Made by a program: the position numbers and the translations under genes | Notes under the pieces: generated by a model | The model's input: the letters and a program-made list of their open reading frames with translations, nothing else | Database searches by the model: none | Told to the model about the DNA's origin: nothing | In this document: positions 15,079-51,654 of the stretch, piece after piece | Layout: the number at the start of each line of letters is the position of its first letter | Numbering within the stretch: position 1 is the stretch's first letter | Assembly (NCBI GenBank): GCA_027623315.1 | Contig: JAQBYD010000009.1 | Coordinates: 1 to 64,000 of the forward strand | Source: Verrucomicrobiota bacterium | GTDB lineage: Bacteria > Verrucomicrobiota > Kiritimatiellia > CAJWTS01 | Direction: 5' to 3' | Length of the DNA: 64,000 bases

Positions 15079-16332
15079 ATGGGCAAAGGACACCATAGTG
15101 ACGTCATCGTCATCGGGGGCGGCGTCATCGGCGTGGCCTGTGCGTACTACCTTTCGAAGGCGGGCCGGCACGTACGGATCCTGGAGCGAGAGACCATCGG
15201 GGCAGGCGCGTCGCATGCTAACTGCGGGCTCATTGTCCCGAGTCATGTGTTTCCGATGTGCCTCCCGGGTACGATGCAGAAAGCCCTCAAGTGGATGCTT
15301 CGCGGCGATTCGCCCCTGTACATTCGCCCGACGTTCAACCCTCGGCTAATTGGCTGGCTCTTGCGATTCGGGGCGCGATGCAACACGCAGGACATGCACA
15401 TCGCTGCGCGTGCGCGGATTGCCATGCTCGACCACTCGATGACGTTGTACCGGCGCCTGATCGAGGACGAGAAGCTGGACTGCGATTGGGAGGAAAAGGG
15501 GCTGCTGTTCGCGTGCCGCACCGAGAAGGCCATGGACGAATACGCGCTCACCGCCTCGCTCATGGAACCGTACGGCGTTGCTGCGAAGCGGCTCAACCAA
15601 GTTGAGCTGCAGGCCCTGGAGCCGGCCCTGAGGGATGACCTCGTCGGGGGATGGCATCATCAGGATGATGCTCATTTGCGGCCGGAGCGCCTGATGAGCG
15701 AGTGGCGTCGTGCACTCGATGGGGATGTGCAATTCGAGGAGCAATGTACGGTAACGCGGATGGATTTGAACCCCGACGGTGTACATGCCGTGGATACCCC
15801 GCGTGGCCCCTTCACCGCAGACGCGATCGTGCTGGCGACGGGGGCGTGGGCACCGCAGCTTGCCGGCCCGCTTGGGCTGAATCTTCCGGTCGAGCCCGGC
15901 AAAGGCTACAGCATCACGATGACGCGTCCGGCCGTGTGTCCTGCGATACCGGTACTGTTCTGCGAGCGGAAATCGGTAGCGACCCCGTGGGCGAGCGGCT
16001 ACCGGCTAGGCGGTACGATGGAATTCTCCGGATACCGCGAGGGGCTGAATCACGTCCGACTCGATGCGCTGCGCGCGGCCGGCCGAGCGTACCTCAAGGA
16101 TCCCTTGGGGGATGAGACGGTGGAGGAATGGTATGGATTCAGGCCCATGACCTACGACGGTATCCCGGTCATCAGCCGCGCGCCCCGCCATCCGAACGTC
16201 TACATCGCAGCGGGTCACAACATGATCGGCATATCAGCCGCACCCGCGTCCGGTCATCTGATCGCCGACCTGATCACCGAACGCGAGCCCATCATGGACC
16301 CCGCTCCCTTCTCCATCCAGCGGTTCCAGTGA
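15079..16332 (+). CDS. FAD-dependent D-amino acid dehydrogenase-like oxidoreductase
   Basis: A 417-residue DAO-fold flavoprotein. The N-terminal FAD motif is [15 protein letters not shown] with the ribose-binding [10 protein letters not shown]; the C-terminal FAD contact is [12 protein letters not shown]. It most resembles DadA/glycine oxidase-type enzymes that oxidise D-amino or N-methyl amino acids to oxoacids, often at the inner membrane. I start it at ATG 15079 ([15 protein letters not shown]). The track ORF begins 187 codons earlier, antisense to aconitase, which is not credible. It faces away from aconitase. The ridA gene 2.2 kb downstream could remove the imine products, but that is inference. 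Confidence 0.82.
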
Positions 16333-16563
16333 ACAGAGCCGTGGTCGCCGCCACGGAATAAGATTTTAGACCCACGAAATACACGAATGACACGAATGGT
16401 TTACAGAGATCGAAATCGTATCCATTGAACGGGGGTCGAGGACTCTGAATCCCACGAGTGTTTTTGGGCCCGCGAATCACGCGCAGGATCCAGGCGTGGG
16501 AAACCACGAATGACTCGAATTAGGCGAATGTTGCAGAAGTAATGAGGTTCCACTTTGGTTAGG

Positions 16564-16609
16564 TTTGGTGTATTTCACGATCTGAATACAGATCGCGAAA
16601 TACACCAAA
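16564..16609. repeat. strong 21-bp hairpin
   Basis: TTTGGTGTATTTCACGATCTG (16564-16584) and its reverse complement (16589-16609) differ at one position and leave a 4-base loop, AATA. It lies just upstream of the GxxExxY remnant. There is no T-run after either side, so it is not an ordinary terminator. Confidence 0.75.
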
Positions 16610-16642
16610 GCGTTCGAAGGTAGAGTGCTGAGAGGAGTTGAT

Positions 16643-16702
16643 ATGACCGATATCGTCTATGCGGACGAGAGTTATGCGATCATGGGTGCGTGTTTCAATC
16701 GC
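16643..16702 (+). pseudogene. N-terminal remnant of a GxxExxY-family protein
   Basis: After a GAGAGGAG ribosome-binding site, the ATG at 16643 encodes MTDIVYADESYAIMGACFN. This matches the beginning of GxxExxY proteins (PF13366-type: acidic N-terminus, then SYAI.GA..EVY). The homology stops after about 19 residues and runs into repeat-coded sequence (RVFRGFRI). The core GxxExxY motif is missing, so it cannot be functional. The ORF stays open to 16834 by chance. Confidence 0.5.
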
Positions 16703-16823
16703 AGCTATTCAATAGCCATTCGGATCATTCGTGTATTTCGTGGTTTCCGAATCCGGACACAGATGACGATTGAGCCACCGATATACGCAACCGCCATTCG
16801 GGCCATTCGTGGTTTCCGAGCTT

Positions 16824-18038
16824 ATGTCTACTGAACAAACTCTGATATCGGTACGTGACGCCGAGAGGCTGATTGCGGAGCACGGCGCGCCTTACGGCAC
16901 GCTGAGGCTGCATCTGAACGACTGCGTTGGGCGGGTGCTGCACGAAGATGTGGTGTCCGACCGTGACCAGCCGCCGTTTCATCGCGTCGCCATGGACGGC
17001 ATCGCCATTCGCTTTGCCGGCTGGGAAAGCGGCCGGCGGGAATTCCGGATCGAGGGAACCCATCACGCCGGAGAGCCGGCGCCCACGCTTCAAGATCCCG
17101 ACGGGTGCTACGAGGTCATGACCGGCTCCGTGCTGCCGCAGGGCTGCGATTGCGTTATTCGCGTGGAGGATATCCACGTGGCCAACGGCGCGGCAACGTT
17201 GAGCGAGCGCGCGACGGCCGGGCTGATGCAGAACGTGCATCAACACGGGAGCGACCGAAGCGCGGGGGATATTCTGATAGGCCGGGGTGCGCGCCTCACA
17301 TCGCCTCACATCGCCATTGCCGCGTCGGTCGGCATGGGCGAGTTGAGTGTCGACCGGGAGCCCGCCATCGCTCTCGTCTCCAACGGCGACGAGTTGGTTG
17401 ATGTGCATGAATCGGTGGCGCCGTACCAGATTCGTCGTTCAAACATCTACGCGGTGGAGAGCGGCCTGCGCAGTCGCGGATATTCCGACTTACATCGTTT
17501 TCATCTTCCCGATGAGCAGGCCGTGGTCGAGAGGGGCCTGGAGCAGATCCTGGAGGATCACGATGTGCTGCTGCTCAGTGGAGGCGTATCCGCCGGCCAG
17601 CACGACTTCATTCCCGGCGCGCTCCAGAAGTTGGGTGTGCGGCCGGTCTTTCACAAGGTCCTTCAGCGTCCGGGCCTGCCGTTCTGGTTTGGCGTTGCGG
17701 AGGGAAACAAGCAGGTCTTCGCGATGCCGGGCAATCCCGTCTCAACCTTGATCTGTTTCTATCGCTACGTGGTTCCCCAACTGGCGATCAACGCGGGGCT
17801 GCCGCGGGAGCCCGAGTTTGCCGTCCTGGGCGAGGACACGGTCTTCAAGAAGGATCTGACGCTCTTTCTGCCGGTGGGCCTGGTTCCTGGAGACGGCGGT
17901 TTGCGCGTAGCCGAGCCGAGGCCGACGCACGGCTCCGGAGATTTCTGTGGTCTTGCACCGACGGACGGTTTCGTAGAACTACCGGCGGGCGCCGATCGCT
18001 TCCCGAGTGGAACCATATGCCGCCTATACCGCTGGTAG
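16824..18038 (+). CDS. moeA: molybdopterin molybdotransferase MoeA
   Basis: Inserts molybdate into adenylylated molybdopterin to complete the molybdenum cofactor. The 404-residue protein has the N-terminal MoeA domains (FHRVAMDGIAIRF), the central TGSVLPQGCDCVIRVED, and the MogA-like domain with LVSNGDEL, LLSGGVSAGQHD and the substrate loop FAMPGNPVST. The ATG at 16824 (MSTEQTL) is chosen. The track start 18 codons upstream reads through an ATTCGTG-type repeat. No other moa/moe genes are nearby, so it is an isolated gene. It implies that the organism makes at least one molybdo- or tungstoenzyme. Confidence 0.9.
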   Translation: MSTEQTLISVRDAERLIAEHGAPYGTLRLHLNDCVGRVLHEDVVSDRDQPPFHRVAMDGIAIRFAGWESGRREFRIEGTHHAGEPAPTLQDPDGCYEVMTGSVLPQGCDCVIRVEDIHVANGAATLSERATAGLMQNVHQHGSDRSAGDILIGRGARLTSPHIAIAASVGMGELSVDREPAIALVSNGDELVDVHESVAPYQIRRSNIYAVESGLRSRGYSDLHRFHLPDEQAVVERGLEQILEDHDVLLLSGGVSAGQHDFIPGALQKLGVRPVFHKVLQRPGLPFWFGVAEGNKQVFAMPGNPVSTLICFYRYVVPQLAINAGLPREPEFAVLGEDTVFKKDLTLFLPVGLVPGDGGLRVAEPRPTHGSGDFCGLAPTDGFVELPAGADRFPSGTICRLYRW

Positions 18039-25834: not shown

Positions 25835-25919
25835 CAAAGTAGAAGCGGCGTCCCGCCGCTTTGCCTTGCGGGACACCTGCGCTGTCGCAGAAAGCGGCGT
25901 CCCGCCGCTTCTACTTTTG
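25835..25919. repeat. AAGCGGCGTCCCGCCGCTT paired inverted repeat
   Basis: Two copies of the self-complementary unit AAGCGGCGTCCCGCCGCTT (about 25843-25861 and 25892-25910) are flanked by AAAGTAGAAGCGGCG and its reverse complement, so the whole 85 bp can fold. It lies just before the next pseudopilin gene and is read in frame in the ORF-track version of that gene. Confidence 0.75.
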
Positions 25920-51279: not shown

Positions 51280-51359
51280 CGTGTCCAGCCTCCTTGAATG
51301 GGTCTGTTATCCATCACCATGATATGCGGTCGGCGCGCTTCGCGTCACGCTGCAAAGTC

Positions 51360-51541
51360 TTAACCCGGATATCCCACACTTTTCCTACTACGAACACGGA
51401 TAGCTCCGTCAGGCTTGATCGAAACAGGGCTTCGCCAATTCACAGTATGTCCATACAGTTTCATCGGCAAAGCCCTGTTTCGATCAAGCCCGACGGCTCT
51501 TCGCGCTCTCGCTACGAAAAAGTGTGAGATATCCGGGTTAA
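51360..51541. mobile_element. MITE-like foldback element, long copy
   Basis: A 182-bp imperfect palindrome. The ends are TTAACCCGGATATC and its inverse, with CACACTTTT repeated further in, and the inner arms share GGCTTGATCGAAACAGGGCT. No ORF is inside. A shorter copy lies at 20419-20505. TTAA at the tips could be part of a target duplication. Confidence 0.75.
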
Positions 51542-51654
51542 GTTTCTTTAAGACATAGCTTCGCCGTTTCGGTTAAAGGTTTTTAATGATAGCTTCATGT
51601 CTACTTAACGGTTGGGCGGCATGGTGCGGATCGAGAGTTTTAAGGAGATGTGGT

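Follow-up and report, generated by a model that had tools for sequence, protein, structure and literature searches.

A truncated GxxExxY gene between inverted repeat arms in a Verrucomicrobiota genome: probable remnant of a mobile nuclease-repeat unit

In a Verrucomicrobiota bacterium of the class Kiritimatiellia (GenBank assembly GCA_027623315.1), the gap between an oxidoreductase gene and moeA is filled by short repeats, a hairpin and what reads as the start of a GxxExxY gene, which raises the question of whether these are the parts of one element and, if so, of what kind. The gap lies in a stretch of 64,000 nucleotides (contig JAQBYD010000009.1, positions 1 to 64,000), referred to here as the window, and the genome as a whole (G000) comprises 3.9 Mb in 129 contigs. 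The original prediction, made from the letters alone, was that ATTCGTG-type repeats, a strong 21-bp hairpin and the first 19 residues of a GxxExxY protein together mark a linked mobile or repeat-maintaining unit in decay. In the literature searched for GxxExxY and the repeat strings, which took in few subscription journals and preprints, the family is a mere name and its link with repeats is undescribed.

The three predicted components are all present. The tract at 16372-16817 combines CACGAAT/ATTCGTG units, set in inverted arms, with a hairpin and the 5' part of a GxxExxY gene, and it is internally deleted (Table 1). Five of the twelve exact ATTCGTG 7-mers of the window fall inside this 440-bp stretch; there is no enrichment of the 7-mer across the whole window (12 found versus 10.4 expected), and the unusual feature of ATTCGTG in the window is its clustering and arrangement only. 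Three of the eight inverted exact 14-mer matches in the window that lie no more than 600 nt apart are also in the tract, which folds as single-stranded DNA with z = -6.7 (0 of 100 shuffles equally good). The gene fragment, MTDIVYADESYAIMGACFN, was not recognized when the profile libraries were searched with it and was assigned by tblastn, which aligns it with residues 1-19 of the intact GxxExxY protein encoded elsewhere in the genome (84% identity, E = 3.5e-7); at the DNA level it has 84% identity to the intact gene over 50 nt (E = 3.5e-11). Past codon 19 there are about five unrelated codons before the frame enters the right arm, and this departure from homology indicates that the rest of the gene was deleted while the arms were kept, in agreement with the predicted decay.

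Table 1. Features of the repeat tract and its neighbours (positions are those of the window)
Feature	Position	Strand	Basis and remarks
FAD-dependent oxidoreductase gene (DAO family), upstream neighbour	15118..16332	+	PF01266, 231 bits; 15118 is an in-frame codon, the true start being elsewhere; stop codon 16330-16332, ahead of the unit
Left outer arm CCACGAAATACACGAATGACACGAATGG, three 7-nt units, 9-nt pitch	16372..16399	+	repeat search
Piece of a further left arm GGGCCCGCGAATCACGCG	16466..16483	+	95% over 19 nt versus left arm of intact unit L001
Left inner arm GGAAACCACGAATGACTCGAATTAGGCGAATG	16499..16530	+	repeat search
Hairpin directly upstream of gene start	16564..16609	.	read from sequence, also in predicted fold; stems 16564-16584 / 16589-16609, 21-nt arms with one mismatch, 4-nt loop AATA
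GxxExxY gene remnant, start codon and first 19 codons	16643..16699	+	tblastn versus L001 protein
Right inner arm	16716..16743	-	repeat search; 93% complementary over 28 nt to left outer arm (16372-16399)
Right outer arm	16796..16817	-	repeat search; 91% complementary over 22 nt to left inner arm (16499-16520)
moeA (molybdopterin molybdenumtransferase), downstream neighbour	16824..18038	+	PF03453, PF00994, PF03454; start codon 6 nt past last arm

A scan of the same genome, which had been put forward as the check on the prediction, found one full-length ordinary GxxExxY gene (C61:3260-3607, unit L001). It is bracketed by GGGCCCACGAATCACGCGAATCTTCACGAATGG and an inverted copy of that sequence, with one mismatch between them, and a hairpin again lies just upstream of the gene start, its sequence differing from that of the window hairpin. 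Matches to the arm pattern number 68 in this genome versus 1 for the reversed control pattern, and many of the 68 pair as gene-free palindromes around loops of some 30-220 nt. In the loops of some gene-free palindromes of the CACGAAT type, a palindrome of the CGCGGAT family is nested; CGCGGAT units were seen in the loops or between the arms of CACGAAT-type units at L047 2238-2452, L048 12119-12265, L049 4950-5039, and L051 4727-4838. Several loops (L035, L038, L041, L047, and the window at 16564-16609) contain long, almost perfect hairpins; each unit has its own stem sequence, with no second copy in 279 kb of this genome, and such unit-specific hairpins may have arisen by snap-back copying. 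The two arms of each unit gave no clear sign of concerted evolution in this genome, the likeness of arms within units not being significantly above that between units (p = 0.09). Two other palindromic structures were seen in the window: a nested palindrome at 51359-51545, with outer arms CTTAACCCGGATATC / GATATCCGGGTTAAG and inner arms GGCTTGATCGAAACAGGGCTT / AAGCCCTGTTTCGATCAAGCC, is possibly another dispersed palindromic family, and an inverted repeat at 25836-25917, AAAGTAGAAGCGGCGTCCCGCCGC ... GCGTCCCGCCGCTTCTACTTT, has internal repeats and looks like a REP-type element.

The prediction also held that GxxExxY genes often lie among such repeats in other genomes, and it named intact genes without them as counter-evidence. 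In its narrow form this does not stand: regularly spaced ATTCGTG was almost absent when scored in the first 29 loci from relatives, and intact genes without ATTCGTG itself do seem to be the case. In a broader form it does, since most of the genes lie between inverted arms of like design built from other units, a rule found only by comparing the two flanks of each locus with each other. Among 197 unique GxxExxY genes with both flanks available, 84% have an inverted-alignment score of at least 26 between the flanks versus 1.4% of 993 control ORFs from the same loci, and 74% versus 0.8% reach at least 30; the control ORFs were called mechanically and some are not real genes, but the contrast is too large to be affected. 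When positions were shifted in 127 loci, a score of at least 30 was reached by 74% at the genes versus 0.2% at the shifted positions. About 16% of the 197 genes fall under the arm-score threshold, and three longer, diverged PDDEXK_3 relatives (L002, L307, and L313) have no arms, so the link holds for the group of about 125 amino acids. A typical arm has three 7-nt units at a 9-10-nt pitch, the unit sequences including ACAGGAT, CACAGAG, CGCAAAG, CACGAAA, CACGAAT, CGCGGAT, CACGGAA, and CGCTTAA, among others, and spaced motif pairs are forward in 101 loci and reverse in 10 upstream of the gene, while downstream they are reverse in 126 and forward in 18. Intact units with other arm sequences are widespread in bacteria and present in some archaea. 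No GxxExxY relatives were found in the phage records searched, and the eight in plasmid records are all distant. A 14-protein alignment was too diverse for the genome scan and a tighter one was used instead, with the result that the ACAGGAT clade is over-represented among the 80 named loci; for this reason, figures for the phylum set alone are given as well.

The sequence of the arms goes with that of the protein. In 58 of 66 cases a protein and its nearest neighbour among the proteins agree in arm class (20% expected), and the similarity of proteins correlates with that of their arms (Mantel rho 0.25-0.41, exceeding every permutation). Mapped onto a tree of the 197 proteins, arm class undergoes 21 changes, compared with a mean of 78 and a minimum of 71 in shuffled data; for the phylum set alone it changes 21 times versus at least 49 in shuffles. 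Host family codes on the same rows change 68 times, near their shuffled mean of 72, and the GxxExxY proteins therefore hardly track host families. The ACAGGAT arm type accompanies a single protein clade that spans 16 NCBI phyla, the archaeon Methanoperedens among its hosts. That arm sequence and protein clade match suggests that recognition is direct; the alignment columns that go with repeat class are 23, 118, 15, 8, 92, and 88, clade and class being confounded in them.

Units occupy junctions between genes, mostly in the sense orientation, and both neighbours are co-directional at 72% of 89 loci versus 48% of background triples. The intercistronic position and sense orientation, along with the ready single-stranded folding of the window tract, would suit an explanation in which the repeats are host RNA or chromosome elements (operon hairpins, determinants of mRNA stability, sites for nucleases or for repair) and GxxExxY is a protein of the host that processes DNA and lies beside its own binding sites, a nuclease that moves nothing. 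Two near relatives, G108 and G122 (96% identical at gatA-gatB), also have most gene units in common, as such host elements would; one unit in each (L303 and L302, respectively) is at an unshared site, and for mobile units the common ones would mean that movement is slow. Against host elements, the same junction may be empty or hold other families in related species. Within one genus, G016 has a unit at the trpE|trpG junction that G058 lacks, G058 has one at the L304 junction that both G016 and G061 lack, and where G058 has a unit at the L300 junction the two genes of G016 adjoin directly. At the L301 junction there is a CGCGAAT-type gene unit in G016, and there are gene-free palindromes in G058 (CACAGAA type) and G061 (CACGAAA type), each of which has a GxxExxY gene of the same arm type as its palindrome. 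Between gatA and gatB, compared across different genera, there is a full unit in four genomes (G064, G045, G139, and G101), an internally deleted unit with both arms and both gene ends in G050, which is a second deletion of the kind seen in the window, gene-free palindromes of several families in six (G084, G120, G096, G109, G112, and G156), and a 28-nt gap without a unit in G058. These comparisons show gain, loss or replacement, the direction not being given in every case, and some absences could be losses. An arm class that agrees with the protein tree and not with host family, and one arm type that accompanies its gene across 16 phyla, also speak against host elements, which are an unlikely explanation overall, while the comparative evidence probably supports mobility of the units. 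The gatA|gatB junction appears as a recurrent insertion place, with GxxExxY units in L174, L183, L197, L168, and L278 and several palindrome families in other genera.

If the units move, an ordinary transposon might be supposed, with the arms as terminal inverted repeats, GxxExxY as the transposase and the gene-free copies as MITEs; inverted ends with a gene in between, gene-free copies, and presence/absence polymorphism all fit this description. The protein fits it poorly. The intact protein is a member of TIGR04256 (131.5 bits, cut-off 35) and of PF13366 (PDDEXK_3; 129.1 bits, cut-off 22), the latter being its only Pfam match in a profile search that returned no DDE or other known transposase. 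Sequence searches against solved structures gave nothing useful, but a confident AlphaFold model (pLDDT 92.8) has as its best PDB match 4ic1 (SSO0001, a Cas4; E = 5.4e-5, probability 1.00, TM 0.54-0.61 by query), with further matches to lambda exonuclease, LHK-Exo, AdnA, and MGME1. On this model, the protein of about 125 amino acids is predicted to fold as Cas4/RecB nucleases do, which is the fold of neither a DDE nor an HUH enzyme, and the catalytic PD-(D/E)XK residues E27, D66, E76 (or Q), and K78 are all retained in 191 of 197 sequences (182 of 197 when Q90 and Y94 are added). Regular target-site duplication was not found either, matches of at least 8 nt between flanks occurring in 4.8% of cases versus 2.0% of shuffled pairs, and the ends are the divergent arms of tandem units, not fixed termini. 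The transposon explanation is accordingly improbable. The sole clear flanking duplication is one of 13 nt, AGAGAAAAAAATG, at the trpE|trpG unit of G016 (L059), where it also restores a start region for trpG.

The gene-free units resemble REPINs, and the repeats might thus be REP/REPIN elements spread by RAYT (Y1) transposases, with GxxExxY a chance neighbour; Y1_Tnp genes are common in the phylum (97 of 145 genomes) and have 7 matches in the genome of the window. The distribution of repeats over these 145 genomes, 67 with and 78 without a GxxExxY gene, makes this very improbable. CACAGAG-pitch repeats occur in 44 of the 67 versus 1 of the 78 (p = 6e-19) and ACAGGAT-pitch repeats in 30 versus 7 (p = 9e-7), and genomes with a classified gene have more repeats where the class of the gene matches (p = 2e-4 and 0.003). 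Once GxxExxY is given, Y1_Tnp adds nothing (p = 0.72): repeats are found in 3 of 40 genomes with Y1_Tnp and no GxxExxY versus 6 of 10 with GxxExxY and no Y1_Tnp. Y1_Tnp/RAYT was therefore rejected as the source, its presence not accounting for the repeats. Three genomes (G002, G021, and G146) have 7-43 ACAGGAT-pitch repeats each with no GxxExxY gene detected; perhaps repeats persist after the gene is lost, or perhaps the assembly lacks it. In G010, the reversed control pattern for ACAGGAT was itself matched 18 times, as a TAGGACA-type spaced repeat, which suggests a further unit family. Last, the tract might be an unrelated mixture in which repeats arose by chance next to some piece of a gene, and the lack of enrichment of the ATTCGTG 7-mer by itself could be cited for this. 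Such a mixture is refuted by the fold of the tract and by its layout, in which an arm, a hairpin, the start of the gene and an inverted arm follow one another just as they do in the intact unit of the same genome.

The linkage that was predicted is thus strong, resting on arms, on their match to the protein and on co-occurrence among genomes, and mobility has the comparative evidence behind it. There is a fair likelihood that the tract is what decay has left of a compact and probably mobile unit, made up of an arm, a gene for a Cas4/RecB-like PD-(D/E)XK nuclease and the same arm inverted, with the nuclease spreading the units. Each nuclease lineage has its own arm sequence, shared with gene-free palindromes in the genome. 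The nuclease would bind to its own arms in one of two forms, a duplex that it touches once every helical turn or a hairpin extruded from the DNA; the 9-10-nt pitch is suggestive of such regular contacts or of a phased hairpin. The bound nuclease would then cut at the ends of the unit or at a target, and cutting would lead to gene-bearing and gene-free units being copied or moved into junctions, usually in the sense orientation. That the nuclease spreads the units by acting on its own arms is proposed by analogy with RAYTs and REPINs. Old units would lose the gene through internal deletion and retain the arms and the gene ends, as in the window, where the copy is left without an enzyme; the product of the genome's intact gene could still act on the arms of this copy.

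The way in which gene and arm sequence change together suggests a little-studied class of mobile element. A wider proposal, almost as likely as not, is that GxxExxY proteins spread a widespread mobile DNA of prokaryotes that forms a class of its own, defined by a Cas4/RecB-like nuclease that recognises helically phased triple repeats, movement of gene-bearing and gene-free palindromes to operon junctions, absence of target duplication, and co-diversification of recognition sequence and protein. If true, this would explain a widespread family of small nucleases of no known role together with abundant dispersed repeats of the ATTCGTG, CACAGAG, ACAGGAT, and CGCAAAG types in many phyla. Numerous nucleases, each paired in nature with its own DNA sequence, would also become available for studying the evolution of sequence recognition, and a direct prediction on arm binding and cleavage follows.

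Several known systems share some of these features. The Rpn family (Transposase_31, PF04754) belongs to the PD-(D/E)XK-type superfamily, and to our knowledge no arms comparable to these have been described for it. No Rpn model was matched in the profile search of the intact GxxExxY protein; Rpn proteins have been linked to DNA mobilisation (PMC5350276). The Cas4/RecB-type nucleases (SSO0001, lambda exonuclease, AdnAB, and MGME1) have the fold and the E, D, E-x-K, and QxxxY residues in common with GxxExxY, but the latter is only about 125 amino acids long, the genes beside it are, in the loci read, ordinary members of operons, and there is no invariant cysteine in family alignments A1 and A3, where iron-sulphur cysteines were sought. 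Classical IS elements and MITEs likewise have terminal inverted repeats around a gene, while their regular target-site duplication and DDE or other known transposase are not seen here. In TIRYTs and TIRtrons (PMC3733652), an enzyme gene also lies between inverted repeats that form a genome family, but the enzymes are Y1-type tyrosine transposases and the arm grammar is different. The closest comparison is with the REPIN/RAYT systems, or REPtrons (PMC3116915, PMC8266576), in which RAYTs are thought to spread REPINs (PMC3116915). The present units are not members, because the HUH tyrosine transposase that defines those systems was tested for and is not what accompanies the repeats, the gene encoding a Cas4/RecB-like PD-(D/E)XK nuclease instead. 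Their arms are short tandem units at a 9-10-nt pitch, while a REPIN is one imperfect palindrome with a GTAG tag, of which none was evident by eye in the arms here, and the gene lies inside the palindrome. Yet in both there is a gene flanked by dispersed inverted repeats, with gene-free palindromic doublets elsewhere (here in the own genome and at the junctions of relatives), co-variation of repeat and enzyme, few gene copies, and slow dynamics, and the best reading, held with reasonable though far from full confidence, is a nuclease-repeat mobile system that resembles RAYT/REPIN in its working and employs an unrelated enzyme.
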